From Branchiostoma floridae (Eukaryota > Chordata > Leptocardii > Amphioxiformes > Branchiostomatidae): DNA of 64,000 bases. Position numbers and translations under genes: made by a program. The stretch lies in the NCBI RefSeq assembly GCF_000003815.2, contig NC_049997.1, positions 14,548,666 through 14,612,665 on the forward strand, read 5' to 3'. The notes beneath the pieces were generated by a model. It saw only the letters and a list, made by a program, of their open reading frames with translations. It had not been told where the DNA came from and did no database searches. Below are positions 9,301 through 63,663 of the stretch, in pieces (position 1 is the first letter of the stretch; each line of letters begins with the position of its first letter).

Positions 9301-12300
9301 GAATCATGACCTCTTCTCTATTATCGTACATAATTACTTTCATTTCGATGAACTCCTTTCTTTTTACTCTTTCAAGCCCTTTTTTACAAACTGTTTAAAT
9401 GTAATTGACTTAGATATCGTCTCTACTTTTGAATCAAGTGTAACAATGTCACGACTAAACCGACCAACCAAACCTTTGTTGTCACAGTAGAAAATACACA
9501 AGCTTTTAAGCAGTAGGATAATTTTTTGCAGGTTCATTTCAGTTCTATAAATTGCATAAGCTTCCTATAGATGCATTTGTCTTTTAAGAAAGAATTTCTT
9601 GTTGCATGATTGAAATTTTTGGTACTCCATACAGATGACATGGCAATAGACCTCCTTGAAAATGGATGGATGGTTGCAACTGGAGACGGTAAATCCACAT
9701 GTTGGAAGTTCAATGTCACCGGTGTGATGTCACACAACCCAGGCTGTTCCGCAGAACACTCCATGGAACTACCAACTCTCCTGGGTTTGGCGACAGCAAT
9801 ATTCTCCGACCTTCGGGATAACAAGTGGATCGACAAATACACAGACTACCTGGTTCTGGATCTGTCGCTATACTACCCAGCACAAAAACTGTTCAGTAGT
9901 CTAAGACTGACCGTAAAGCAGGAAGATGTGGGACATCTTTCAACATCAGCATCTTTTGCAACACACAGGCTTTTCCAGTACGAAAATGACTCTGACATGG
10001 TTACTTTGTTTTCCTATATCCTCTTTATGTTGTTATTCTTGGTTAATATCATCAAAGAAGCGACCACAATGAAGAAGGAGGGAAGGAAGTTCTTCAGGTC
10101 TATGTGGAACATCTTTGCTTTTGCGAGCATAATTGGATCTGCAGCTGTCATCGGTATCTTCGGAATAAGGTACCACTCTGCATCTGCAGCACTGGCAAAG
10201 TTGGTCGAGGCAACAGGTACATTGTTGCAGATTGTCACATTATACATATTCAGAGGATTGTAGCATATGAATATGAATTCTTTCTTGATTACAATGAAAC
10301 ATGCCATATTTGGGGAAAATGCTAATCTCTAAGCAGATCCTACAATGGCAAAAAATAGTACCAAACTGGCCAAAGAGTGTAGTCAGCAAAGAGGTGTCCA
10401 TTTGCCCGGTAGCCAAACACACTCCTAGGCCGGCTTCACCCCTCTGCCAGCTTTTGATACTATCTTATGCTACCGTAGGATCTGCTTGGAGATTAGGAAA
10501 ATGCTTCTTGAACTGCTTTCTATCGTAATCTGGGCGTTAGAGGAATTACCTCCGGTTAATCGTATACGCTTCACCTATGAATTTGAACATAAACAAATGA
10601 GCAAAGAAACAAACCAATTGCCATCTCTCATATTTGCATCTCTTCTTTTGTAGGCGAACTTGGAATAGATCGTTTTGTCGACTTGAGCTCAACCTTCTGG
10701 TGGGATGAAGTTTTCAAGACCGTGCTGGCCATTGTGCTGTTCATTACTACACTGTCGTTACTGCGAGTTTTCCGCTTCAGCAAGACCATCGCCAGTTTCA
10801 TCGCCCTGCCAGGCGCCATGAAGAATGACTTGGTCGGCTTCTCGATCGTAAGCGCTATAGCCTTCATGGCTTTCAGCTGCTCAGGTAAGAGGTGCTTCCC
10901 CTCATTTTAATGACTGTGACAGGGTTATAACGTTACTGTATATTCCTTGCCTAAATGGACTGGACCTTCTTGGTCCTTAGAGAAGGTAGACTGACGTAGG
11001 TCAATGGTACTTTTCAACATAGATTAAAACATCGACGTCGTATTTTACTTAGAACTTTGTAATTGATGACGTAAGACATTTCATATATTTATTTCAGGGA
11101 TGCTGGTGTTTGGGACTCATATGAAGGCATACACCAATGTGTTGCACACCAACTTTGCCTTATTTGAGATGTTATTGGGAAGGTATGTATTGTCGTCATT
11201 GCCTCATTTTAACATGTTTTTGTTTTGTTTACATTGCACATAAAGCTATTACGAAGTGAAGATAAATGGCAGGGGAAGGGTACTCCTTAATAAATTTTCC
11301 TATAAGCAACTTTTTAAAAAATCAGCAACATGTTTTATATCACACATAAAGCTATTGTATGTGAAAATAGATTCCGTGGGAGGGGGGGTAGATAAATTTT
11401 CCTAGCTTCTATGAGCAACCTTTTGACTTGAGGGTCATGTTCTACAGGTTCTTTGCCGAGGAAATCTTAGAATCGAACCGATATATCGGCCCTATCTTCT
11501 TCACTTTCTTCATGATACTCATCTTCATACTACTCGTCAACTTCCTGGTGACCATCATCTGTGATGCCATTGCTACCGGTGTCTACGTTGCGGATGAACA
11601 TGACCAAGAACTGGCTGACTACATCTGGAGAAGTTTCCAGGGAGTCTTTGGGATTCATGTCCCTCCACCGAAGGATGTAATATCAGGTAACTAATCTCTA
11701 CAGGACAGTTTATCTGTGTTGGTAGAAGTGAATGTGAAGCACATTCGAAATCTTGACTCTAAATACGACGACAATGGCACATGCTCAAAATTTCAACTGT
11801 GAAACTCTAGTCTTTTACCAAGGAACGAGTGACTCAATTGCGGTCTCTTTTGATGTCGCTTTTGACAGTTAGACACCAAGTAATCAAATATTTAATCGTG
11901 TAAGCCACTGTACAAAGGGAGTACAAGCTTATTTGGAATTTAAAAGAGGATACAAAAAGATTGATTATTGACAGAAAATAGTAACCTTGAGCAAATAACC
12001 TTTTAGTAAAGATTATATTCATTTATTTATTGTAACTTCGACTCGACTTATTGTATTTTCTATTCATCATTTACAGATGAAATGAAAGAAACAGAGCTCA
12101 ATACAACATTCGAAATGATTGCAGAATCCTTGAATGAAACCCTGGATGTTACAAGCAGCCTTTTGGAACACAACAGAATCGACGAGCCTTCTTTGACCAT
12201 ACACGATAATGCTATTGCCCAACGTCAGATCACGAAGCAGTCACACGAAGTAAAATGTGAGTTCGACGCTATGCTGCCGTCAACTTCGTCTGCTATCGGA

Positions 12301-14546: not shown

Positions 14547-16911
14547 TGGTGAGTTAAAGCGTAGATTTATTACGCTGGACCACATACAGTAACATGCGTC
14601 TAGAAGACCTGAAGGTGTTTCAAGAAGCTCTTGATGCTGGAGAACTTTCCTCCAGCCAGAAGTTTGGGGTTTTGACACTGTTGCCAAAGAAGGGAGACGA
14701 ATTGGACCCCAAGAACAGGAGACCAATCTCCCTCCTAAACACCGACTACAAAATTTTGACTAAAGTTCTTAATAACCGCCTTCAGTCTGTAATAGCGTCG
14801 GTGTTGCACCCGGACCAAACCTGTGGTGTACCAGGAAGGTCGATCCAGTGCAACCTCCGACTCACACGAGACATAGTTGTTTACGCAAATAACAATAACA
14901 TCGAATGTGCTATTGTCTCCCTTGATCAAGCAAAAGCCTTTGACCGTGTCAACATCTCCTTTCTACAACAGACTCTCGCACGAATGGGATTTGGACCTTC
15001 CTTTCGGAAGTGGGTTTCAATACTTTACAACGACATCTCCAGTTCCGTTTTGGTGAATGGCTCCCTGTCGTCTCCCTTCGCCCTAACAAGGGGAGTGCGG
15101 CAGGGATGCCCACTTTCGCCACTGTTGTATGCAATCTCTCTTGAGCCGTTTGCGGCGACAGTCCGCAAAGACTCTGAGGTGCATGGAGTAAAACTCCCAG
15201 GCGGCTACGAAGCCAAAATGTCTCTGTATGCAGATGATAACTCTGCCTTCCTGACATCAGACGACTCTATCGTCAGGCTGTTTGACCTTGTCGGGCTGTA
15301 CAACAGAGGCTCAGGCTCAATGTTGAACCTAGACAAGTGTGAGGGGTTATGGCTGGGGAAATGGAGAAATAGACCAGACACCCCTGTACAAATAAAATGG
15401 ACATCTGGGTCCATCCGTCTGCTTGGTGGGGTCTTTGGCAACATTGACATGCCCCTAACCAACTGGAAGGAAGGTAAACGCAAATTTGTTGAAACCTTAC
15501 AAGGATGGGGAGCCAGATCCCTCTCCTTTACAGGCAAAGTGACAGTGGCAAACTCTCTAGCCACCGCCAAACTGTGGTACCTGGCGTCGGTGTTCACCCC
15601 TCCTGATTCGGTCATGAAGGAAATCAATACCGCACTGTTCGCCTTTTTCTGGGACAAAAAGCGTGAGATGATCAGCCGAAATACCATCTACCTTCCTCCT
15701 CAGAAGGGCGGCTGGGGCCTAATCGACATAGCAAAGAAGGCAAAATGTCTGTACAGTCGGCCTTTCTCGGACATCATGTCCCAGGAAGACTTACCTTGGG
15801 TGCAGCTCGCCAGGTACTGGCTCGGTATTTTCATTAGACGTTTCGACCCGTCAACATGGTCCAATAACATGCCCCACTCCCCGAATGCCCCTCCCCACTA
15901 CAAAGCTCTACAGTCCCTGGTATCTGAACTCGTAGAGGCATCCCCCTCTAAAAAGTGGGACCCCGGGTGCACTACGCGGTCTCTATACGACAGCCTTCTA
16001 AAGAAGGATGCTCACATTCCAAGCGTCTGTCTTAACAAGCGTTCTGTTCCCTGGCCATTAACCTTCCAATCTGTTCAACACCCACTCCTGGAGAACAAAC
16101 TGAAGGACACTGCATGGCTGGTTGCACACCATGCCCTCAAAACGAATGCCCTGCTCTGCTCGAACTGGGGTTACATTCGCTCGGGAACTTGTCCAAGGCA
16201 GAATTGTAAAGGCCACGAAACTGTAGAGCACGCCATGTGGTACTGCAGCGAAGTGCTGCTAACATGGACTTGGGTGGAGGGTTTTCTCAGGAGGTGGGTC
16301 ATGTCAGACTTCCGAATAAATAAACAGATGGTTATCTATGGCATCCTGCCACCCTCATGGAAAAAATGCAAGATAGATGCTATCACCTACACCCTGGCCG
16401 TCGCGAGGAAACGCATATGGTCCTCACGTTGTGAAGCACTCTTTGACAAGACCTTTTCGACTCATGTCGAGATGGTCCCATACATCAAGGAGTGCCTCCG
16501 CTCAAGAATAAAGCTTGACTTTGTACGTCTGAACGAAACAACGTTTATGTCTCTGTGGTGCTCAGTGCAGTGGGCGAGGGTCGACGGGGGAAAACTGCGA
16601 CTACGCTTTTAATCCCCTGCTTCCCCCCTGTAGTCGTATCAGTCTGGTATGAACTGTCTGTCTTGTACGTTTCGTATGTCTTTTTTATTTGGATGTGTCA
16701 AGTTGGCAGGAGTGGGTTGGTGGGAGCTCGGCGGACAAGTAACCTGTTGTGGGTAGCTTGACACATCCCTTTTTCTTTCCTTCTTCTCTTGTATGTTCTT
16801 TGAAATGATGTAAAAAAAAAAAATGAAAACAGTGAAAAAACGTCTTGTCTCTCTTGTCTAGTTTTCTTTCTTTTTTGATTTTGTTATACCCCCATTAAAA
16901 ACGGGCCTTTG
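14547..16911 (+). mobile_element. L1/Tx1-like LINE, 5'-truncated copy 1
   Basis: An uninterrupted 672-codon frame (14594-16612) begins inside the reverse-transcriptase domain. RT blocks are visible in order: PISLLNTDYKILTKVLNNRL, the SLDQAKAFDRV block, GVRQGCPLSPLLYAISLEP, then YADD (about residue 212), followed by a C-terminal Cys/His-bearing segment with conserved tryptophans. The endonuclease and any ORF1 are missing. The 3' UTR contains a 12-A run at 16812-16823 and ends near GGGCCTTT. The PISLLNTDYKIL motif is typical of the Tx1/L1 lineage (family knowledge). The left boundary is approximate. The open frame suggests a fairly young insertion that is dead by truncation. Confidence 0.85.
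14594..16612 (+). CDS. LINE ORF2 fragment: reverse transcriptase plus C-terminal domain
   Basis: 672 aa. The first ATG lies within the truncated RT domain, so the start is an accident of truncation. The catalytic YADD is intact, as are the flanking QGCPLSPLLY and KVTVANSLATAKLWYL-type thumb motifs. The C-terminal part carries a CPRQNCKGHETVEHAMWYC zinc-knuckle-like Cys/His cluster as found in L1/Tx1 ORF2. No APE endonuclease is present, so the protein would not be an autonomous retrotransposase. Codon use is C/G-ending, unlike the related copy immediately downstream. Confidence 0.85.
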   Translation: MRLEDLKVFQEALDAGELSSSQKFGVLTLLPKKGDELDPKNRRPISLLNTDYKILTKVLNNRLQSVIASVLHPDQTCGVPGRSIQCNLRLTRDIVVYANNNNIECAIVSLDQAKAFDRVNISFLQQTLARMGFGPSFRKWVSILYNDISSSVLVNGSLSSPFALTRGVRQGCPLSPLLYAISLEPFAATVRKDSEVHGVKLPGGYEAKMSLYADDNSAFLTSDDSIVRLFDLVGLYNRGSGSMLNLDKCEGLWLGKWRNRPDTPVQIKWTSGSIRLLGGVFGNIDMPLTNWKEGKRKFVETLQGWGARSLSFTGKVTVANSLATAKLWYLASVFTPPDSVMKEINTALFAFFWDKKREMISRNTIYLPPQKGGWGLIDIAKKAKCLYSRPFSDIMSQEDLPWVQLARYWLGIFIRRFDPSTWSNNMPHSPNAPPHYKALQSLVSELVEASPSKKWDPGCTTRSLYDSLLKKDAHIPSVCLNKRSVPWPLTFQSVQHPLLENKLKDTAWLVAHHALKTNALLCSNWGYIRSGTCPRQNCKGHETVEHAMWYCSEVLLTWTWVEGFLRRWVMSDFRINKQMVIYGILPPSWKKCKIDAITYTLAVARKRIWSSRCEALFDKTFSTHVEMVPYIKECLRSRIKLDFVRLNETTFMSLWCSVQWARVDGGKLRLRF

Positions 16912-18980
16912 TTAATATGAATAACTTTGACTGTGCGATCATTTCTCTGGATCAGGCCAAGGCCTTTGATAGAGTGAATATTGATTTTCTTCACTTGACT
17001 CTTGCGAAGATGGGTTTTGGCCCGGTTTTTCGCAAATGGGTTGCTATATTGTACCACAACATTACCAGTGCTGTTCTCGTCAATGGGTCGCTATCATCTT
17101 CTTTTTCTCTCTCAAGAGGTGTTCGGCAGGGGTGCCCTATGTCACCCCTGCTGTACGCAATTTCTTTGGAGCCATTTGCCGCTACAGTAAGGGCCGACGC
17201 TGCGATTCACGGCCTCAGGTTGCCTGGTGGCCGTGAAGTTAAGATCTCGCAGTATGCGGACGATAACTCGGCTATTGTTACAACCGATGAGTCGATCCGC
17301 CGGCTCTTTGCTGTTATTGACATGTATAACAGAGGTTCCGGGTCTCTTTTAAATCTTGACAAATGTATGGGTCTCTGGCTAGGTAGTTGGAGGAAAAGAC
17401 TCGATTGTCCGAAGAATTTTAAATGGACATCTGTATCCATACGTTTATTGGGAGGTACTTTTGGAAGTGTTAATATGCCTTTAGTCAACTGGAGGGAGAG
17501 GCAAGCTAAGTTTGAAGCGGTTCTGCGAAGGTGGGACAGCTTCTCTTTATCCTTCGCTGGCAAGGTTGTCGTCGTTAATAACCTTGCTTTATCTACTTTG
17601 TGGTATATTGCTCCTGTATTTTCTCCTCCCGAGTCAGTCGTCAAGGACATTACGAGAGCCGTCTTTAAGTTTTTCTGGAGTTCTCGTGCAGAACTGGTCT
17701 CTAGAAAGACAGTTATGCTACCTTTGGACAAAGGTGGATGGGATCTCATTGATTTTGGAGTGAAGGCCAATTGTTTTTATTGTCGGCCGTTTACCAATAT
17801 TCTTGACCGGCCGGATCTTCCATGGGTCCAGTTGGCAAAATATTGGCTGGGTTTTTTTGCCCGTCGTTTTGAACCATCATCGTGGTCTAACAGTTCCCCC
17901 CACTCTCCTGAGGCTCCACCTCACTATTCTTTGATGCGGAAGCTCACCTTGGAATTTGTTAATGCTTCTGCTTCGAAGACTTGGGACAAGATATGCACCG
18001 TGCAGTCTTTGTACAAATCTGCCATTTTAGCTCGTTCTCATACCCCTTCCGCTTGTTTTTTAGAGCGGGGTGTTGATTGGTCACTTGTTTTTTCAACGGT
18101 GCATAACACTCTCCTTGAGAATAACCTAAAGGAGCTTTCCTGGAAGGTCGCACATGGGGCTCTCAAAACCAACTACTTGACTTGTTCGATTTGGCACAGA
18201 ACTCCTTCCCCTCTTTGTCCGAGGAGAAACTGTAGAGATACGGAGACCATTACCCATGCCATCTGGTCTTGTGGCGAGGTGCTCCTGACCTGGACTTGGG
18301 TCGAAGGGTTCATTAGGCGATGGGTGGTCTCTAGTTTTCGTGTTTCTCGCGCGGTCGCTCTCTATGGTGTTATGTCGTCTACCCTGAAGAAGTGTAAGAG
18401 AGATGTCTGCACCTACATTTTGGCCGTCGCTCGGTCTAAGATTTGGTGGTCCAGGTGTCAGGCTCTCTTTGACAATAATTTCGTATCTCACATTGAGCTG
18501 GTGTCTCTAATCAAGGAGGCTCTTAGGTTTAAACTTAAGATGGAGTTTGTTCGACTTGGTTCTGAAAGTTTCTTGGCTGAGTGGTGCCAATCTGTTAGAT
18601 GGGCAAGTGTGCGGACGGGAGTTTTGGTTCTACGTTTTTAGAGTCCTTGTCGTAGTAGTCTTTGTTTGGTGCTACAGTCTGTCTTTGCTATTGGTGGATT
18701 GTCTGTTAGATGTTCAGTGTGTGTGGTCAGTCCTTCACTATGGTGTTCTCCTTCTACTCTCTAGTCCTCTTTATAATTTCCAGTTTGCTTTGATGTGTCG
18801 TTTCTTGGCAGAAGGGTGGGCGGGTGCAAGTCTGCCTCGTGTGGAATGGCACATCCTTTTTCTTTATTTCCATTCATGAGTTGTTTCTTCTTATATTATG
18901 ATGGTTTTCAGTTTGGTCTCTGTCTGTATTACTAAAACTGTTTGTATACCCAAAATAACAAAGGGCCTTTGGAAGGGGCT
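16908..18980 (+). mobile_element. L1/Tx1-like LINE, 5'-truncated copy 2 (different subfamily)
   Basis: It begins directly after the GGGCCTTT 3' end of copy 1 and enters the RT domain at the residues equivalent to copy 1's SLDQAKAFDR block. It ends near a second GGGCCTTTGG (18961-18972). The protein is colinear with copy 1 but clearly diverged, and codon use is T-rich. The two are therefore separate subfamilies joined head to tail, not a duplication of one element. Confidence 0.8.
16917..18641 (+). CDS. LINE ORF2 fragment, second copy
   Basis: 574 aa, colinear with the 14594-16612 frame from its SLDQAKAFDR block to the end. Present are GVRQGCPMSPLLYAISLEP, YADD, the thumb region and the Cys/His cluster CPRRNCRDTETITHAIWSC. 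The fingers subdomain and everything N-terminal is missing, so the product is very unlikely to be active. The ATG is internal and chosen only because the truncated frame has no natural start. Confidence 0.82.
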   Translation: MNNFDCAIISLDQAKAFDRVNIDFLHLTLAKMGFGPVFRKWVAILYHNITSAVLVNGSLSSSFSLSRGVRQGCPMSPLLYAISLEPFAATVRADAAIHGLRLPGGREVKISQYADDNSAIVTTDESIRRLFAVIDMYNRGSGSLLNLDKCMGLWLGSWRKRLDCPKNFKWTSVSIRLLGGTFGSVNMPLVNWRERQAKFEAVLRRWDSFSLSFAGKVVVVNNLALSTLWYIAPVFSPPESVVKDITRAVFKFFWSSRAELVSRKTVMLPLDKGGWDLIDFGVKANCFYCRPFTNILDRPDLPWVQLAKYWLGFFARRFEPSSWSNSSPHSPEAPPHYSLMRKLTLEFVNASASKTWDKICTVQSLYKSAILARSHTPSACFLERGVDWSLVFSTVHNTLLENNLKELSWKVAHGALKTNYLTCSIWHRTPSPLCPRRNCRDTETITHAIWSCGEVLLTWTWVEGFIRRWVVSSFRVSRAVALYGVMSSTLKKCKRDVCTYILAVARSKIWWSRCQALFDNNFVSHIELVSLIKEALRFKLKMEFVRLGSESFLAEWCQSVRWASVRTGVLVLRF

Positions 18981-20550: not shown

Positions 20551-40311
<19,761 letters not shown>

Positions 40312-41057: not shown

Positions 41058-41365
41058 AGTCCAGTCTTCAACACCCAAACAGAATATCCGGATTGTTGAT
41101 TACATTGTTGAAACACTTTTTTCACATGTTGTAGAGTAACTTGAAACTGCATACAGTATTCTTGCTTTATTTGAGAGAACACAACAATTACATAATAAGT
41201 AATAGATAGATGATGAGCGTGGCTTGATTATGTGAAAGTTGTGTTCTCTCAAATAAAGCAAGAATACTGTATGCAGTTTCAAGTTACTCTACAACATGTG
41301 AAAAAAGTGTTTCAACAGTGTAATCAACAATCCGGATATTCTGTTTGGGTGTTGAAGACTGGACT
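41058..41365. repeat. 128-bp inverted repeat next to the assembly gap
   Basis: 41058-41185 and 41238-41365 are reverse complements over 128 bp with one mismatch noted, separated by 52 bp. The right arm stops exactly where the Ns begin. Could be a genuine foldback element or an assembly fold-back at a contig end. Confidence 0.85.
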
Positions 41366-42749: not shown

Positions 42750-44300
42750 CTGGTACGGCTAAACTGAATTTTAACCGGCTTTGACTTGAACTTTCAATGA
42801 CTGGACTGACCGACTAGCCTGGGGCTCCACTTTGCAGACCGGTATAAGGAACATCTTGACCTTGAGAGTCAAGTGGGTTGTCACAGCTTTCCATCATTCA
42901 GCCAAACGGACTAAAATCTAACGTTACATCATCATGGCAAGCATATTTGAACTGGGATTTCTGATCATGAACTGTGAGTTACTCTGTTTTGGTTTATTGT
43001 TTCGGTTATTCTTTCCACTGTTTCCAGCACTGAGAACATGAATCAAGCTTGTTTTCCAGGAGAGAGAGTCAAACTGTTTTGTTTAGTTTAACCTCCTTGG
43101 TTTAACGTACCTGGCACCCATGTTATTTTCTGGAGTGGCGACACTGTTTTCAGTAGTTTACAGTTTTAATAATCAAACTGTGTGTAAGTTTGACGGCATG
43201 GTCGAGCCTGTTACTGTCTGTAAAATATTGCACAGATTTTGTTATTTTCTGAAGATCTGGTTGTGTTTTCCAGTGATAAAAATCATTGACTGTTGGGTAC
43301 TGTTTCGGTAGAAAGAATCGAACTGTTTTGTATAGTTTGACGGCAGTAACCTTGTCATTTTCTGAAGACCTGGTTCTTTGTTACAGCTATGGAAAGCATT
43401 AAACTGTTGGTTACTTTTATGACATTGAGTCTTTGTGTCTTAACCCTCTCTAATCCCCTTGGCAATTAGCACAGTGTGTGATCCGACCAGTGGTGCAGAA
43501 AAAGTGTTGGTTTATCCAAAAAGTGTGGTACTATCCAAAAAGTGTGGTATTATCTTATGCAAATTTTACATAATCCCACACTTTTTGGATAGTACAACAC
43601 TTTTTCTGCACTATGTGGATATAATCACAGTAATTGAAGGGCTCCCATTGGCTGAGGGGTAGTGGCCATGTTCTAATTCTAAGAAAAATAATTTTGATGC
43701 AACAATAATACTGCTGATTTGAGAAAAACTAGAGGTGTACCAGTTTGTAATTTTCTACGCTTCATGTTTATAACAGAAATATCCATACCATACAAACACT
43801 TGAAACAAAACTGTATCTAAAACGATTTTTCTCAGAATTTGGCCTTTGCCTTGCGAGTTGACCAGAAGTTTGGTACAAACTGCACAGGAAATAAATAAAA
43901 AAAATTATGCAAAAGAATATGATTTTGTAACGCAAATTATCTTGGTCTCTTTCATGTATAGATCTTCCTCTTAAAGAGCCCACATATATTGACATTTTCA
44001 CGAAATCGATATATTATTGACCGACGAACGTTCGCGTCCTGAAGTGAGAAAAATTTTGTGTTTTGCACTTCGGTCTTGTCTGACGTCAAGTCTAGGTTTT
44101 CAACAGTCACGTGTACTTTTCTCACCTCAGTAGCCACTACTTGCTTTCCCTCAACGGGAAGCATGGTTTCTTCTTCAAGTTCCTGTTACTCCAGTCCAAG
44201 GAAACAGCTCAGGCTTCACCTTAAAAGAGTAAAAACGACAACGCCATACAAAAATGAATCAATCTCCAATATTTCACAAGGTTTCAAGATGGCAGCTTCG
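42750..44300. other. Intergenic region between USP47 and RPL10A
   Basis: No recognisable protein-coding exon. It contains the hairpin at 43494-43610 and AT-rich filler. The upstream end of the RPL10A promoter begins near 44280. Confidence 0.4.
43494..43610. repeat. Short foldback/MITE, about 117 bp
   Basis: The left arm TGCAGAAAAAGTGTTGG... and right arm ...AACACTTTTTCTGCA are inverted, with a repeated ATCCAAAAAGTGTGG block on both sides. Non-coding. Confidence 0.65.
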
Positions 44301-44439: not shown

Positions 44440-47400
44440 ATGAGGTAAGATCTCTTCAAAATCCGTTTTAATCTGCGTCAATCGTTGCTCGTTTTTAGCG
44501 AAACTGCACAAATGTTGACCATAGAAGAATGTAGATGTGTCACTAGAGTATATTTTGTGGAAATGTTTCGTTAGATCGTCGTAGTTTGGAGTGAAATGAG
44601 ACATGCAGTGACTGAAATAATGTGGAGCACGTCGGCCATGCTTTTTGGATACGTGCACGATCATGATCATCAAACATGTCAGAAATAAAACCTCCCTGTA
44701 GAAATCCAGCTCTAGGTTACAGTGCTGTGCTGTTTGAAACTGCCTCAAGGTCTGACGGTAAAAACTAACAAAAGTTACCTTTTTCTTTTGGCCAGACTTT
44801 AAGAAAAATTAAAAATTCACAAACCCCATGCCTTATGATCTCAAAGCAGATGTTTCGAGTTCAGTAGATGATGCATTTTACCCTAAGCCTTGCAATATCA
44901 GCTTTGAGCTTACAGTTGCTTACACATGAGAAACTCCTGCTATACTTATCTATAGTATTGTGTAGCAGAATATAACATAATTTGCATATATATAGCCAAC
45001 ATGTTGATATTATTTCCCCAAATGATTATTCTCTCCACAGTAAGATCAACAGGGACAACCTGTACGAGTCCGTGGACACGGTGCTCGCGTTCTCCAAGAA
45101 CAAGAAGCGCAAGTTCGTGGAGACGGTGGAACTTCAGATCGCCCTGAAGAACTATGACCCCCAGAAGGACAAGCGTTTCTCTGGCACCGTCAAGTAGGCA
45201 TACTGCTCCAACCTACTAGTTAGGTAGTCGCACCGTTGTGTGTGGCGGACCCCAACCCAGGGTCTTAAACAATCTGGGGAGGCAAGGGTGCCAATGTGAC
45301 CCAAGCCGTTATAGAAGGATTCCCACACTTAGCTGGGAAGGTTGCAAACTGGTACTTCTTCATTAAATAGTAGTTTGGAAGTATAAGATACAACTACATG
45401 TCAGTGCTCTTTTGGAAAATGCTTTTTGTTATCAAAAAGTACATGCACCTAGCTCTTATACTAGTTATAGTGAAACTGTTTTTTTTGGGGGGGGGGAGGA
45501 GGTTGAGAGGCTGCCTTCTGTTAAACTGTTCAAAATTAGCTAAGAAAGTAGTAATTTTGTAGCCTTCCAACATGATCTGTTTGGAGATTAAAACCATAGC
45601 ATATCACCAAACAACTTGATACCAAGGCAGTTCAGTGATGACAATATTCTGCATGTGTGCAGAGCTCGGCTATGAAGAGCAACCAGAAATAGCTCTAGAA
45701 TTACACTGAGAACCACGCCTGGTCAAAAATCTCAACACGCACTCACAGAAGCAAAATAGCGATTTCACAGTTATGTTGTTTGTACGAAGTGTTTTTGTCT
45801 CCATTTTTCAGGCTGAAGCACACGCCGCGTCCCAAGTACCGTGTGTGCGTGCTCGGAGACCAGCAGCATATCGATGAGGCCAAGGCCAATGAAATCCCCT
45901 GCATGGACGTGGAATCCCTGAAGAAGCTCAACAAGAACAAGAAGCTTGTCAAGAAGCTCGGTAGGTATACTGTAAAGTCATTTACTTACGTAAAAAGAAA
46001 AGTTTTTCATGCTGTTTTCCATTTGCGGTTGAAACAATTCCCTAGCACAGTAGTCGTACAACTCAAAAAGTCGATTCGAGTTAATTCGAGTCGGACATGT
46101 CACAGGAAAAATTGAACTGCTGCAAGAGTTATGGTATTTAAAGACTGTCATGCACAACACAAGCCCTTACAGCCAACCACAAATATTTGTAATAGTATAG
46201 TTTAGGCTTGTCTGTGTTTGTGCATGTATGTTTCTGCCGTTCTAATAAACACACTGCAATATTGCCGTAGTACAGTGTTGAAGAACGCAAGAACTTGCAC
46301 AAAAGCCCCTAAGAGGTGAAGTCTGCTATCTCTGACTACCATGTTAGGAAGAGCAAGATAAGAAAGCTGACAAGATTTTTCCTTCCTTTTATCTTCATCT
46401 AGCCAAGAAGTATGATGCATTCCTGGCGTCGGATTCTCTGATCAAGCAGATCCCCCGTATCCTGGGCCCAGGTCTGAGTAAGGCTGGCAAGTTCCCCACC
46501 CTCCTGACTCACAACGAGTCCATGACAGGCAAGGTGGAGGAGGTCAAGTCCACCATCAAGTTCCAGATGAAGAAGGTGAGAGTCAAGTAGACGGGTGTCA
46601 GTGTAGCCTGATTAGATCTCGCTTACAGCAGCCCACCTAACATCTGAGGGGCCAGCACATACAGTCAAACCTGTATTAGGTGCCACCTCTGCAGAGGGGC
46701 CACCTGTCCATAGTGGCCACTTTTTGTCGGTCCCTTGGGTATTTTATCTACAAGTTGCCACCTCTATACAGAGGCCACCTGTCTATAGTGGCCACATCTG
46801 TCCGGTCCCTTGAATGGCCGCTATAGACAGGTTTGATTGTACTAGTGCCAGTGCTTTTGCTTGTTTTAACATAATAATGATATCATTATTTCTAACAGAG
46901 ATCAAATGTGTTCTCAATGTGTTCTCAAGAAGTGTATGTAATATCTAGACTTGAAGTTTATTCTTGTAATTTTGTAGTGGAGCTTTTATTTTGTATTTTT
47001 TGGGGCAGGGTCAAACATTGTATCATCAAGAGTAGAAAGAAAAGTTTGCATGTAATCATAACACCAAGGCAGTTCAATGATGACAATATTCTGCATGTGT
47101 GCAGAGCTCTCGCTATGAAGAGCAACCAGAAATAGCTCTAGAATTACACTGAGAACCATGCCTGGTCAAAAATCTCAACTCACACCATTCCTACAATAAA
47201 ACAAGGCTCCACAGTAGGACAGTATTACTAACAGTTTGATATTGGTGTGCCCTAGGTCAAAGTTGACTTTCCTTATCTTGTTATGTTATTATGAGGACCA
47301 TGCTTTATACCATGTCCGTCATGTTTTGTTTATGTGTCAGGGGTCTTCAACTTTGACATATTACCCACATTGCATTACACTGCACTGCACATGCATGTAG

Positions 47401-47848
47401 TCTAAACTGTAAACTAACTTATTCCAATGTGGTGCAAACCAGTTGCAGAATTCCAATTACAGCCCAACTACTGTAATTCACCTTGTCATCTCGGTACCAA
47501 ATCTTAAACATCAGCAATTTATTTGTTATCGGCAATGATAACTTCACGTTCTACAGTCATCACCGTGAAAACTGAACATAGAAGTACATAGAAAACAATT
47601 AGGAATTACAGTAGCCTTCTCCCAAGTTTGTTTCAAATTGTCACCTTCTAACCATTGTTATTTATTGTGATGTTTAGGTGCTGTGCTTGTCTGTTGCCAT
47701 CGGACACGTCAACATGTCTGCGGAGGACCTGGTCGCCAACGTGGTTCTGGCCGTGAACTTCCTGATCTCCCTGCTGAAGAAGGGCTGGCAGAACGTCAGG
47801 GCACTGTACATCAAGTCCACCATGGGCCCCTCTCAGCGCCTGTACTAA
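44440..47848 (+). CDS. RPL10A: 60S ribosomal protein L10a (uL1), snoRNA host gene
   Basis: Five coding exons: 44440-44444 (ATGAG only), 45041-45193, 45812-45960, 46403-46575, 47678-47848. Together 651 nt, 216 aa plus stop, essentially the usual 217-aa length. The protein begins [17 protein letters not shown] and ends [13 protein letters not shown]. The L1 fold blocks [42 protein letters not shown] and [16 protein letters not shown] are intact. Component of the mobile L1 stalk of the large ribosomal subunit, which helps release deacylated tRNA. The tiny first exon is fixed by the M-S-K start shared with the family and by the AG|T phase. The poly(A) signal AATAAA at 47864-47869 lies only 16 nt after the stop. 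Introns 2 and 4 carry C/D snoRNAs. Confidence 0.96.
45624..45719 (+). ncRNA. SNORD45-like: C/D-box snoRNA, SNORD45-like, copy 1 (RPL10A intron 2)
   Basis: C box GTGATGA (45635-45641), D box CTGA (45706-45709), and a terminal stem with GTTC (45630-45633) pairing GAAC (45710-45713) and outer GGC/GCC. Upstream of D, AGCTCTAGAATTAC (45691-45704) is a perfect 14-nt complement to the conserved 18S sequence GTAATTCTAGAGCT. The fifth nucleotide from the D box pairs with the A corresponding to human 18S A159, the SNORD45A target (family knowledge). Internal C'-like ATGAAGA (45672-45678) and D'-like CAGA (45660-45663) are also present. The D' guide GCATGTGT can pair with 18S AUACAUGC and points to human-numbered C174. 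Confidence 0.92.
46661..46841. mobile_element. MITE with ACAGTCAAACCTGT ends
   Basis: The left ACAGTCAAACCTGT and right ACAGGTTTGATTGT are inverted with one mismatch. The interior has repeated GGCCACCTGTCYATAGTGGCCAC hairpin pieces. RPL10A intron 4. Related fragments occur near 51500 (ACAGTGAAACCTGCC) and 52807-52920 (GCAGGTTTGACTGT). Confidence 0.7.
47066..47162 (+). ncRNA. SNORD45-like: C/D-box snoRNA, SNORD45-like, copy 2 (RPL10A intron 4)
   Basis: Near-identical to copy 1: C box ATGATGA (47077-47083), D box CTGA (47149-47152), GTTC/GAAC terminal stem, and the same 14-nt 18S antisense (47134-47147). The guide and boxes are fully conserved. The changes fall in the stem, the C-box first base and the loop before C'. 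This indicates a functional duplicate rather than a relic. Intronic C/D snoRNAs are released from the spliced lariat by exonuclease trimming. Confidence 0.92.
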
Positions 47849-48042: not shown

Positions 48043-48203
48043 TAGTCTCCAAGCAGACCCAACAGTGCCTTAGAGATAGTATCAAAGCTGCCAAAGGAGA
48101 TAGCAGGCCAAAGGGAGATAGCCGGCTAAGGGAGTCAAACGGGCACCATACTGGTCAGCTTTGATACTATCTCTAAGGCACCGTTGGGTCTGCTTGGAGA
48201 CTA
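48043..48203. mobile_element. MITE C (161 bp), TIR core TCTCCAAGCAGACCC
   Basis: 47-bp inverted ends (48043-48089 and 48157-48203) with one mismatch. AGTACGGG flanks both sides (48035-48042 and 48204-48211), a clean 8-bp target-site duplication. No ORF. Same terminal core as the elements at 10323-10495 and 41740-42740. Confidence 0.85.
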
Positions 48204-59326: not shown

Positions 59327-62281
59327 TTATTGTTGGGAAGTCAGGATGGCTCGTCCTAGATCCGAGTCGGCTTCTGGACGATAATAGAAGGTTTGAAAGG
59401 TCGCAGCTCTAGACCAGTCAGCCAACTTGAGCAGTTCTGGGAGCGATAAGCCTTTCCTGAACGCTGCGGAGGCAGCGGCCCCCCTGTGCGAGTGGGGCTT
59501 GAATATCGAGACATCTATTCCTGCTAGGGACATAATCTCTTTCAGCCACCTCGCAATGGTCGATGAGGTGACTGATTTTTTAGTCCGAAAGGACATGAAG
59601 AGTTTCCTCTCCAGGCGTAAGTCCTTTGTTCTCTGGATATATGCCCGGATATAGGAGACTACAGAGAGGCTTTCTTGACCTCCATAGTGTTGGAGGACTA
59701 TCTCCCTGTAAGGCCGGCCTGGCCTATCTGTTTTTGTCAGATTAGCAGGTACGAACGTTACTTTTGTTGTTGACATGGCCATGAGGTCAAGTGACAGAGA
59801 AGACAGGGTAGCTGACCTGTCTGCTGAAGTTAATGCCATAAGTGTGGCAGTCTTGAGAGTCAACATCTTTAGGGACAGATTGTCAGGGGGATGTAGTGTC
59901 TTCAAATACTGTAAGACTTTGTCTACGTCCCAAGTTACCAGGTATCTTGGGCGGGGAGGTCTCAGGTTAAAGATACCCATCATAAAGCTGGATACCATCC
60001 AGTGTTGTCCAATACGTACGCCCTCGATCGGAAGTCTAGTGGACGAAATGGCCGATCGGTATACATTAAGGGACCTGTATGCCAAGCCTTCTGAGTATAA
60101 GGAATGGAGAAAGTCCACTACTCTAGGGATGGGAGCTGTTGTAGGGTCTAGCAACCTGGCCCTACACCAGGAAGCATAGCGATTCCAGGCGCTCTGATAT
60201 TGCTTGTTTGTTGACTTCCTGGTAGCCGCTGTGAGCACCGAAGTTGCCTCTTTGGAGACCCCAAGAGCGGCTAACGCCTGCCCGATACAGCCCATGCGGT
60301 CAGTTTTAGGGTCTTCCACAGCGGGTGTGTTTCTGTCCGACTGCCCGGAAGGCTGAGGGAGTACTTGTCTACCGGCAGAGGAAATGGTTCGTCTGTGGCT
60401 AGCTCTTTGAGAAGCGGGAACCATGGTTGGCTGGGCCAAAATGGTGCGATTACCATCGCCTGAGCCTTGTCTTGCCGCACCTTGGCTAGGCAGCGGGACA
60501 GGAGGCATACTGGGGGAAATATGTACACTTTCATTCCGTTCCATGGCCATGTGAACGCATCTACTTTCCAGGCTAGAGGATCGGGTTTCCAGGAGCAAAA
60601 CTTCGGCAGTTTGGTGTTGAGTCTGGACGCAAATAGGTCCACCTCTGGGTGGAAGTTGAGTTGACGGCTGGCTAGACGGAAGAGGTCGGGATGTAGAGAC
60701 CACTCTGTCGTGTCCTGGAAGACCCTGGAGGCTGTGTCTGCCTCCTCGTTTTGAACTCCTGGAATGTGCTCTGCTGAAATGGTGAGACCCCTTGCTAGGG
60801 ACCATTTCCACAGATTCAGTGCAGTCTTGCACAATGTCAGGGACTTGCATCCTCCCTGATGATTGATATAGGCTACCGCTGAGGTGTTGTCTATCCTCAG
60901 ATGTACATGGCTGTTCTTCCTGGTGGCAGCGAAACACTGGAGAGCGAAGAATGCCGCCTTCAGCTCCAGTTCGTTTATGTGGAGCTTGCTCTCTGACAGG
61001 GACCAGCGGCCCCCTGTTTGATTGTTCTCGCATGTGGCTCCCCACCCTTGGAGGGAGGCGTCCGAGGTAATGGTCAGTATCGGACCTTGAGGGTTCACGA
61101 AGACTTTGCCGTTCCACTGGCTCAGACATTGAGACCAGACAAGAAGCTCTTGCCTGGCCTCCTGTGGAAGGGTTACCTTGTCCTCCCAAGACAGGCCTTG
61201 TGTCCGGGAGTCGTTTAGCAAGGTTTGCAAAGCCCTGTAGTACAGCGGAGCTGGTAAAACCGCTAGTACTGACGCGGTCATCTTGCCTAGTACTCTGGCA
61301 AGTTGTCTTAGGGAGATCTGCTGCGATCCTTGCAAGGAGGAGCAGGTCTGAACCAGATTCATCACTTTCTCCTCTGGAAGGGAGAAGGTAAGGAGCAGGG
61401 AGTCGATCACCATGCCCAGGAAGGTTATCTTCTGGGTGGGTATCAACTGTGATTTCTCCCAATTCAGGAGAAATCCTAGAGAAGTCAGGAGATCGATGAC
61501 AAACTTCAGATTGTCCCTGCATTCTTGGGCTGACGTGCCCAGGATGAGGATGTCGTCCAGGTAAATGATTATGCGAATTCCCTGGGATCTGATCACTGCT
61601 ATGATGGGTTTGGTGATCTTTGTGAAGGCTCTGGGTATGCAATTCAGCCCGAAAGGGCAGACTTGGAACTCCCACAGGCGAGATTGGAATTGAAACCTGA
61701 GGAGTTTGCGAAAGGATGGGTGTATGGGAATGTGGAAGTAAGCATCCTGGATATCCAGGGATGCCATCCAGTCTCCGGGACGTATGAGAGATTTGAGGTC
61801 TTGTAGTCCCTCCATCTTGAAATGTGGGGCCAACACATACTGATTGAGAGGTTTCAGATTTACGACCGGGCGCCAGCCACCCGACTTCTTTGGAACCAGG
61901 AAGAGGCTGGCTACAAACTCTCCCGGTGTAGGCAGAACTTCCGTTATCGCCCCCTTCTGCAGAAGTGACTGAATCTCCTTTGAAATTAAGTCTGTCTCCT
62001 CTGTGGAACGATTCTGTTCTCGTGGTGCTACGCGTTGTATTGGTCGTCCTGTGAGCTGCGGCTTCAGACCCTGGATCGCCTGAAGGACCCAGGCGTCCGA
62101 CGTAATAGCCTGCCACTGTGGCAGGAAGTGTTGTAGCCGGCCAGCTACTTGGGTAAGAGGCTGCAGCGCAGGGGGCGACCGGGGTGATACCACCAGGGAG
62201 GGGTGAGGTGTAACCTCTAGTTTTTTGCCTGGCGCTTCCCCTTGTGGAAGTTCTTTGAGCCCTGGGGTTTGTGTGAGTCAC
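59327..62281 (-). CDS. DIRS tyrosine recombinase frame (long overlapping ORF)
   Basis: 984 codons open. Only the C-terminal part (about residue 675 on, from about 60270) looks like a folded protein: a SAM-like core-binding segment (STNKQYQSAWNRYASWCRA) and the catalytic domain with Arg in LTSADRSATLSSL, H-x-x-R in HSHRGAAAS, Trp in LADWSRAAT and the nucleophile Tyr in FQTFYYRP. This is the tyrosine recombinase that inserts the DIRS circle. The first about 660 codons overlie the RT/RNase H gene in another frame and are Ser/Pro/Gly/His-rich, so the real YR start is probably near 60300. Confidence 0.85.
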   Translation of the reverse strand: MTHTNPRAQRTSTRGSARQKTRGYTSPLPGGITPVAPCAAASYPSSWPATTLPATVAGYYVGRLGPSGDPGSEAAAHRTTNTTRSTTRTESFHRGDRLNFKGDSVTSAEGGDNGSSAYTGRVCSQPLPGSKEVGWLAPGRKSETSQSVCVGPTFQDGGTTRPQISHTSRRLDGIPGYPGCLLPHSHTPILSQTPQVSIPISPVGVPSLPFRAELHTQSLHKDHQTHHSSDQIPGNSHNHLPGRHPHPGHVSPRMQGQSEVCHRSPDFSRISPELGEITVDTHPEDNLPGHGDRLPAPYLLPSRGESDESGSDLLLLARIAADLPKTTCQSTRQDDRVSTSGFTSSAVLQGFANLAKRLPDTRPVLGGQGNPSTGGQARASCLVSMSEPVERQSLREPSRSDTDHYLGRLPPRVGSHMREQSNRGPLVPVREQAPHKRTGAEGGILRSPVFRCHQEEQPCTSEDRQHLSGSLYQSSGRMQVPDIVQDCTESVEMVPSKGSHHFSRAHSRSSKRGGRHSLQGLPGHDRVVSTSRPLPSSQPSTQLPPRGGPICVQTQHQTAEVLLLETRSSSLESRCVHMAMERNESVHISPSMPPVPLPSQGAARQGSGDGNRTILAQPTMVPASQRASHRRTISSAGRQVLPQPSGQSDRNTPAVEDPKTDRMGCIGQALAALGVSKEATSVLTAATRKSTNKQYQSAWNRYASWCRARLLDPTTAPIPRVVDFLHSLYSEGLAYRSLNVYRSAISSTRLPIEGVRIGQHWMVSSFMMGIFNLRPPRPRYLVTWDVDKVLQYLKTLHPPDNLSLKMLTLKTATLMALTSADRSATLSSLSLDLMAMSTTKVTFVPANLTKTDRPGRPYREIVLQHYGGQESLSVVSYIRAYIQRTKDLRLERKLFMSFRTKKSVTSSTIARWLKEIMSLAGIDVSIFKPHSHRGAAASAAFRKGLSLPELLKLADWSRAATFQTFYYRPEADSDLGRAILTSQQ
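60271..62193 (-). CDS. DIRS reverse transcriptase / RNase H
   Basis: 640 aa. RT blocks: LFLVPKKSGGWRPVVNLKPL (about 97-116), SLDIQDAYFHIPIH (about 145, first catalytic Asp), the CPFGLNCIPRAFTK block, and YLDDILILG (about 210, catalytic Asp pair). RNase H: TSDASLQGWGA (about 378), INELELKA with the catalytic Glu, and RIDNTSAVAYIN with the catalytic Asp, then HIPGVQNEEADTASR. All catalytic residues are present. The entire frame lies inside the longer 59327-62281 ORF in another reading frame. The ATG chosen is the first in the open frame; translation could start by reinitiation or frameshift after gag. Confidence 0.88.
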   Translation of the reverse strand: MVSPRSPPALQPLTQVAGRLQHFLPQWQAITSDAWVLQAIQGLKPQLTGRPIQRVAPREQNRSTEETDLISKEIQSLLQKGAITEVLPTPGEFVASLFLVPKKSGGWRPVVNLKPLNQYVLAPHFKMEGLQDLKSLIRPGDWMASLDIQDAYFHIPIHPSFRKLLRFQFQSRLWEFQVCPFGLNCIPRAFTKITKPIIAVIRSQGIRIIIYLDDILILGTSAQECRDNLKFVIDLLTSLGFLLNWEKSQLIPTQKITFLGMVIDSLLLTFSLPEEKVMNLVQTCSSLQGSQQISLRQLARVLGKMTASVLAVLPAPLYYRALQTLLNDSRTQGLSWEDKVTLPQEARQELLVWSQCLSQWNGKVFVNPQGPILTITSDASLQGWGATCENNQTGGRWSLSESKLHINELELKAAFFALQCFAATRKNSHVHLRIDNTSAVAYINHQGGCKSLTLCKTALNLWKWSLARGLTISAEHIPGVQNEEADTASRVFQDTTEWSLHPDLFRLASRQLNFHPEVDLFASRLNTKLPKFCSWKPDPLAWKVDAFTWPWNGMKVYIFPPVCLLSRCLAKVRQDKAQAMVIAPFWPSQPWFPLLKELATDEPFPLPVDKYSLSLPGSRTETHPLWKTLKLTAWAVSGRR

Positions 62282-63563
62282 GAAAGGAGCGGTTAGATTG
62301 ACCGTGATGACGTCCTCCCCTGGAGCGGTGCCTCCCCCCAGGAAGGTTGGTACCAGAAGACTGTTGAGTCTTCGGTGATGCCGGTTTGTTGTAGAGAAGG
62401 GCCGGCTTGTTGGCAGCGAAACCTGAGCTGTTTAGCCTGGCCACTGTCTTTTCCGTTTTCTCACAGTCCTCAATGTTCTTGATGATATCCTCTCCCAGGA
62501 GCCACTTACATGTGGCATTGGTAAGGCGTCCATCGACATTCTGGGACTTCCCAGGCACCTTTTGCTTGTCGTGGACCAAGCATTTGAACCTTGGGTCCAC
62601 CCACTCGTGGACCAGGCGGCGCCTCACTCCTGTGATTTCATTACAGACACTGCCCAGGAGTTGGCCCGTAACCTTCAGGTTGGTCACAAGTGTGTTAGCT
62701 AGTTCCGATAACTCCTTGTTATCGGACACAGTAAGGGGTACTATCGTGTCAAGAGACACTAGTAAGGGCTGTACTGCGCGCAGTACGTGCTCCTGGATTT
62801 TCTTGATAGAGTCATCGTGTTTGACCGCTTGGACCGAGTGTTTGATCCCCTCCCACTTCTCCCTCAAGAGAGGTTGTAGGTTTGGGGCCGAGACAGCTTC
62901 CAACTGGCTCTGGTCCAGTAAGTAAGGTTTGACGGTGGTGTCAAAAGTCTGCTGAGAAAACAACAGACACCTTTCATTTTTGAACCAGTTGAGTAGCTTG
63001 TCTGAAACAAGTACCCCTGTTTCCTTAGGTTCAATGGAAGTGAGGAGGTCGTAAGGGTCTGGAGGGGGGGACGTGGTCACCTCCTCCTCCTTCTGGTCAG
63101 GGATGAGTTCCTGTTCAACTTCAAGGTTCCGCTCCCGCTCATGAAGCTCTGATTCGGAGGGAGCAAGGACACTAATGTCGTCCCGAACCTGAGATGTCGA
63201 CGGGCTGGTCGGGCGGTGACTCCTAGAACGGGACCGAGAGCGGGACGAGTAGCGACTCACGTCATCCCTTTGGCGGTGCAGGGGGGACCTGGACCGCTCA
63301 TGGCGCCTGTGCCGACGATAGCGAGCATCGTCCTCGTCTTCCGAGCCGCTGCCGCTGGAAAAGCTTGAGAAGCGGCTCCTGGACCGACTGTTGCGGTCCG
63401 TAAAGGCCCGCATCGAACCAGACACTGCCTCAGCCACCATTTGTTGGAGGCCCTGCACAAACGCTGGATCTTGAAAGATCTGCGATCCGACTGACAGAAG
63501 TTCGGTTCCCGCCAAATCGTGGGGGGAGCCGCCGTGTGCATGGTATGTGTGGTCCCCCGGCAC
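62217..63563 (-). CDS. DIRS gag-like protein
   Basis: 448 aa. Residues about 55-125 are Arg/Ser/Asp-rich with repeated SRSRSR stretches, followed by an acidic segment and a helical domain (about 160-370), and a basic Gly/Arg/His-rich tail ending HKGKRQAKN. The first ORF after the 5' leader, the position of gag in DIRS elements. No zinc knuckle is visible; nucleic-acid binding would rest on the basic RS and GR tracts. Its last 65 nt overlap the start of the 59327-62281 frame. Confidence 0.75.
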   Translation of the reverse strand: MPGDHTYHAHGGSPHDLAGTELLSVGSQIFQDPAFVQGLQQMVAEAVSGSMRAFTDRNSRSRSRFSSFSSGSGSEDEDDARYRRHRRHERSRSPLHRQRDDVSRYSSRSRSRSRSHRPTSPSTSQVRDDISVLAPSESELHERERNLEVEQELIPDQKEEEVTTSPPPDPYDLLTSIEPKETGVLVSDKLLNWFKNERCLLFSQQTFDTTVKPYLLDQSQLEAVSAPNLQPLLREKWEGIKHSVQAVKHDDSIKKIQEHVLRAVQPLLVSLDTIVPLTVSDNKELSELANTLVTNLKVTGQLLGSVCNEITGVRRRLVHEWVDPRFKCLVHDKQKVPGKSQNVDGRLTNATCKWLLGEDIIKNIEDCEKTEKTVARLNSSGFAANKPALLYNKPASPKTQQSSGTNLPGGRHRSRGGRHHGQSNRSFRDSHKPQGSKNFHKGKRQAKN

Positions 63564-63663
63564 CTCAGAGGTGGCGGGCGGGCCATGTGCGCTTGGCGCG
63601 ATCGACTGATTTTGACCGTTTCCCGGCGCTGGAGCGGCAGGAAGGGAACTTGATTAGAAGACA

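Follow-up and report, generated by a model that had tools for sequence, protein, structure and literature searches.

RPL10A and its introns

An RPL10A (uL1) gene was identified on the forward strand of the window, which is the whole 64-kb stretch of DNA that was analysed. The gene, its coding exons and its introns are as follows.

44440..47848, + strand: RPL10A (uL1) host gene, from ATG to stop, with a 216-aa ORF once spliced
44440-44444, 45041-45193, 45812-45960, 46403-46575 and 47678-47848, + strand: coding exons of RPL10A
44445-45040, 45194-45811, 45961-46402 and 46576-47677, + strand: introns 1-4 of RPL10A, all with GT...AG ends

The spliced product matched the Pfam family Ribosomal_L1 with an E value of 3e-55. 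Over residues 2-216 its best PDB match was 8q87, named just 'Ribosomal protein' (E 2e-111), and the 60S ribosomal protein L10A / uL1 was matched over the same residues (E 4e-110). Two near-identical copies of a candidate box C/D snoRNA were present on the sense strand of the gene, one in intron 2 and the other in intron 4. Judged from the sequence, RPL10A is the host of both, and the host and introns given in the first-pass annotation were upheld by the spliced ORF, the GT/AG introns and the Pfam and PDB matches.

No Rfam family reached its gathering score anywhere in the 64-kb window. In the same Rfam search of the window no H/ACA snoRNA was found at gathering score, and no tRNA gene was found. 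Low-score matches to snR10, sn2429, SCARNA7 and snoMe28S-Cm2645 were taken as likely chance.

Two further structures were observed in and beside the gene. At 46678-46832 in intron 4, upstream of snoRNA copy 2, a 60-nt repeat occurred twice, 75 nt apart and with 82% identity, and this stretch also contained a palindrome and an inverted repeat. Just 3' of RPL10A, at 48043-48203, there was a near-perfect inverted repeat with 48-nt arms, which were 98% complementary and separated by 65 nt. Its miRNA-precursor scores on the two strands, 34.2 and 31.9 bits, were below the threshold of 70 bits, which suggests that the hairpin is MITE-like and not a miRNA.

Boxes, stems and guides of the two copies

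The duplicated unit and the elements recognized within it are listed below for each copy, with 18S targets in human numbering.

45621..45736, + strand: copy 1 of the duplicated unit, intron 2; snoRNA from stem to stem 45630-45713, 84 nt
45635..45641, + strand: copy 1 box C, GTGATGA
45651..45658, + strand: copy 1 D' guide GCATGTGT, 7 Watson-Crick pairs and 1 G-U pair with 18S ATACATGC; D'+5 at C174
45660..45663, + strand: copy 1 box D', CAGA, 1 letter off CTGA
45672..45678, + strand: copy 1 box C', ATGAAGA, 1 letter off RTGATGA
45690..45704, + strand: copy 1 D guide TAGCTCTAGAATTAC, 15 Watson-Crick matches to 18S; D+5 at A159
45706..45709, + strand: copy 1 box D, CTGA, 102 nt before the intron end
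47063..47179, + strand: copy 2 of the duplicated unit, intron 4; snoRNA from stem to stem 47072-47156, 85 nt
47077..47083, + strand: copy 2 box C, ATGATGA
47093..47100, + strand: copy 2 D' guide GCATGTGT; D'+5 at C174
47102..47105, + strand: copy 2 box D', CAGA, 1 letter off consensus
47115..47121, + strand: copy 2 box C', ATGAAGA, 1 letter off consensus
47133..47147, + strand: copy 2 D guide TAGCTCTAGAATTAC; D+5 at A159
47149..47152, + strand: copy 2 box D, CTGA, 525 nt before the intron end

Box C (RTGATGA) and box D (CTGA) were perfect near the ends of both copies, and the internal D' and C' boxes were present in both, each 1 letter from consensus, as is common for C'/D' boxes. The closing stem GTTC/GAAC was extended by an outer stem, with a duplex energy of -13.4 kcal/mol in copy 1 and -14.6 kcal/mol in copy 2. 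None of 2000 mononucleotide shuffles of the stem arms was as good for either copy. Among 2214 placements with the same spacing in the RPL10A introns, the copies' own surroundings being excluded, 0.8% matched the stem strength of copy 1 and 0.6% that of copy 2. The fold energy of the whole RNA was ordinary (z -0.5 to -1.3), which is usual for C/D RNAs. With these boxes and shuffle-tested stems, both copies have the predicted anatomy of a box C/D snoRNA, and the perfect C and D boxes and closing stems of the first-pass annotation were borne out in each. Box D usually lies 70-80 nt before the intron end in vertebrates, and the 525 nt of copy 2 is beyond this distance, which counts against it.

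The D guide TAGCTCTAGAATTAC, one base before box D, paired with 18S GTAATTCTAGAGCTA over 15 nt without any wobble, so that the complement is one nucleotide longer than the 14 nt first described. The 18S target stretch was used as printed for yeast and Candida, with its positions anchored to human numbering, and on this scale the D+5 register of both copies fell on A159, in agreement with the target first named. Nine RTGATGA...CTGA frames were present on the two strands of the window, and only the two copies exceeded a 7-nt duplex with a 38-nt 18S stretch, G-U pairs being allowed. A 15-nt duplex was found in none of 300 dinucleotide shuffles; duplexes of at least 12 nt were found in 3 of them, with a maximum of 13. 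The exact 14-mer complement occurred twice in the window, both times inside the copies, and seven of the nine 14-mer matches in the window carried 3 mismatches, as expected by chance (mean 6.35).

The D' guide GCATGTGT could form an 8-bp duplex, including one G-U pair, with 18S 171-178. By D'+5 geometry it would point to C174, as had been proposed, through a duplex that is weak, and in the predicted fold its letters could form a hairpin instead. The C174 claim for the D' guide is weaker than the A159 claim for the D guide. We consider that the copies very probably function as C/D guides for 18S A159, and an action of the D' guide on C174 is rather probable.

The two copies were 96.6% identical over 117 aligned columns in blastn, and the repeat search agreed. 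The near-identity reported at first was confirmed, whereas the length of about 95 nt was not, since the unit spans 117 columns and the RNAs would be 84 and 85 nt. Over the whole unit there were 3 substitutions and 1 indel, located at the box C purine, at two adjacent places in the D'-C' loop and at one place in the outer stem; copy 2 could be distinguished by A at 47077 and TC at 47110-47111. The guides and boxes D, D' and C' were unaltered, and the change in box C fits the consensus either way. Because the copies have a common recent ancestor, they are not independent witnesses. Outer stems help the release of intronic C/D snoRNAs, and if the outer stem was copied along with the snoRNA, the greater length of the unit would be accounted for.

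Similarity in blastn ended at the unit borders, and the flanks beyond aligned loosely at best. No further copy of the unit was found in the 64-kb window (blastn, word size 7, E up to 1), the remaining matches being two, of 15 and 16 nt. As to marks of retroposition, the 52-nt 5' flank and 61-nt 3' flank of copy 1 shared no word of 6-12 nt, and the corresponding flanks of copy 2 shared two 6-mers, which is near chance (about 0.8 expected per copy by our estimate). No shared flank word of at least 7 nt was present around either copy, and no A-tail was seen by eye. With flank words near chance and no A-tail, DNA-level copying and old retroposition are indistinguishable here.

SNORD45 likeness, origin and alternatives

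The three human genes SNORD45A, B and C all lie within RABGGTB introns. SNORD45B is described with the targets A159 and U172 and the host RABGGTB (PMC3766210), and SNORD45C with the target Cm174 and the same host (PMC8393311); Cm174 is likewise given as the SNORD45C target in PMC9941101 and PMC9412354. In a table of PMC8000472 SNORD45A, B and C share one row with RABGGTB. In a table of PMC3511168, Am512 is assigned to U45a and RF00279 stands next to U44/Am166, which conflicts with the SNORD45B target of PMC3766210. The latter was preferred, because the Rfam SNORD45 consensus, when read in the same way as the copies, itself indicated A159 (with only 6 uninterrupted pairs) and U172.

A covariance search had been proposed as a check in the first-pass annotation. 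In full-length alignment to Rfam SNORD45 (RF00279) the copies scored 22.8 and 21.7 bits (E 0.45 and 0.86), under the gathering cut-off of 42 bits, so formal membership of RF00279 was not reached by either. These scores were no stronger than those of likely chance matches alongside (snR10, 22.4 bits; sn2429, 22.3 bits), and SNORD45 was absent from the whole-window Rfam list at E up to 5. The Rfam scores thus give no proof for the copies and assign them to no family, and the case therefore rests on the boxes, the stem, the guide and the host.

The copies resemble SNORD45A/B and RF00279 in the A159 D guide, in the letters around box D and in having several copies per host. They differ from RF00279 in a D' register shifted by 2 nt, which falls on C174 instead of U172, in a length that exceeds the 72 positions of the model by 14-15 nt, and in a score about half of the gathering value. 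The published target of human SNORD45C, C174, is also the one predicted for the D' guide of the copies, but its host is RABGGTB and theirs RPL10A. SNORD44 and plant snoR18 (18S A166 / A162) address the same 18S stretch (PMC3511168), whereas D+5 of the copies lies on a different base, 7 nt away; the SNORD44/A166 type was ruled out, as D+5 falls on A159. The description as SNORD45-like can be kept for the predicted targets A159 and C174, and it fails at the Rfam cut-off and at the consensus D' target U172. On paper, the copies would work like SNORD45, with the register of SNORD45C. It is very likely that each copy is a gene for a box C/D snoRNA of SNORD45 type, encoded within an intron.

According to this proposal, RPL10A pre-mRNA would be transcribed and spliced, C/D proteins would bind the core of stem, box C and box D in the intronic RNA, and debranching with exonuclease trimming would free an RNA of ~85 nt. 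The snoRNP would pair its 15-nt D guide with 18S, and the equivalent of human A159 would be 2'-O-methylated by fibrillarin; methylation of C174 through the 8-bp D' duplex is less sure. The pair probably arose when the 117-nt unit, snoRNA and outer stem together, was copied from intron to intron, and this copying could be recent, or older with later homogenisation.

Three other explanations of the pair were considered. An unrelated C/D family might have converged on A159 with no descent from SNORD45, which would fit both the Rfam score under the cut-off and a D' guide directed to C174 when the Rfam consensus is directed to U172. Against this, C174 is also guided by human SNORD45C (PMC8393311), and both predicted targets, together with AAUUACaCUGAga around box D, have their counterpart in the consensus of SNORD45 or in one of its genes; convergence appears very unlikely. 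It is extremely improbable that the unit is a chance match, or a non-RNA repeat such as a transposon-derived intron element that fits 18S fortuitously. Other repeats are indeed present in the intron 4 region, but a C/D frame with the 15-nt match arose in 0 of the 300 shuffles, on which a chance origin was rejected, and a repeat of transposon type was rejected on the mere two copies in 64 kb and the lack of any common flanking word of at least 7 nt.

The remaining alternative accepts one copy as a working snoRNA gene and takes the other, more likely copy 2, as a recent copy which is not expressed and has not yet decayed. The distance from box D to the intron end, 525 nt in copy 2 vs 102 nt in copy 1, speaks for it, and because just 3 substitutions and 1 indel part the copies, copy 2 may simply be too young to have decayed. 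On the other side, neither copy has lost a box, a guide or its closing stem, and the stem of copy 2 is even slightly stronger (-14.6 vs -13.4 kcal/mol). We regard one silent copy as somewhat unlikely, and prefer the reading of two snoRNA genes of the SNORD45 kind.

Changes of host and of copy number have been described for other snoRNAs. In a survey of 44 eukaryote genomes, the positions of intronic snoRNAs are described as unstable, with movement among broadly expressed hosts (PMC3511168), and in Drosophila 27 cytoplasmic ribosomal-protein genes are given as snoRNA hosts (PMC2246290). For B. floridae 60 snoRNA families are given in PMC5006418. No earlier report of SNORD45 or of RPL10A-hosted snoRNAs in amphioxus was found among the open-licence papers listed. 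Since host mobility and multi-copy hosts have been reported, the SNORD45-like pair in RPL10A belongs to a known type of event. The first-pass annotation had stressed an unexpected host and a duplication within it; both hold for the sequence, and the element of surprise is lessened by the mobility reported in PMC3511168 and the shared SNORD45A-C row of PMC8000472.

A wider scenario could be drawn in which SNORD45 of the chordate ancestor was a single guide for A159 and C174 whose host encoded a ribosomal protein, while the RABGGTB site and the A159/U172 type appeared later in vertebrates; we hold it to be quite unlikely. If it were true, Cm174 would be the older second target. This modification is described as regulated and MYC-responsive in human cells (PMC8393311), and the C174 register of the copies bears on the time of origin of the human SNORD45C target.

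With the pair, which the curated threshold of Rfam misses, the known snoRNAs gain a sequence-based example of a differing host and of copying between introns. Two distinguishable copies in one transcript, lying 102 and 525 nt from the intron end, also allow the influence of position and outer stem on the release of intronic C/D snoRNAs to be compared in a natural setting.

Other elements of the window

On the reverse strand, ORFs at 59327-62431, with a further ORF at 62217-63653, included a reverse transcriptase domain (RVT_1, E 1e-26). In another frame there was weak similarity to a tyrosine recombinase (Phage_integrase, E 5e-06, 26.8 bits vs a cut-off of 27.1 bits); by their look, these ORFs presumably belong to a DIRS/Ngaro-type retrotransposon. 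On the forward strand, two consecutive long RVT_1 ORFs at 14558-18641 (E 1.5e-32 and 4e-17) were alike by eye, and looked like those of two adjacent LINE-type elements.

At 41072-41351 and 43520-43603, miRNA-precursor scores were below threshold (84 vs 160 bits and 42.3 vs 83 bits), the former stretch being near an N run, and both are perhaps hairpin-forming repeats. An ORF at 34437-34748 on the reverse strand had a weak ubiquitin hydrolase match (UCH, E 8e-05, 22.8 bits, below the cut-off of 23.9), and a USP-type gene probably has one of its exons here. On the forward strand, 9610-10260 and 11392-11691 were identified by Polycystin_dom and PKD_channel matches as exons of a polycystin-type channel gene, which by eye may also include neighbouring ORFs that begin at about 3900.
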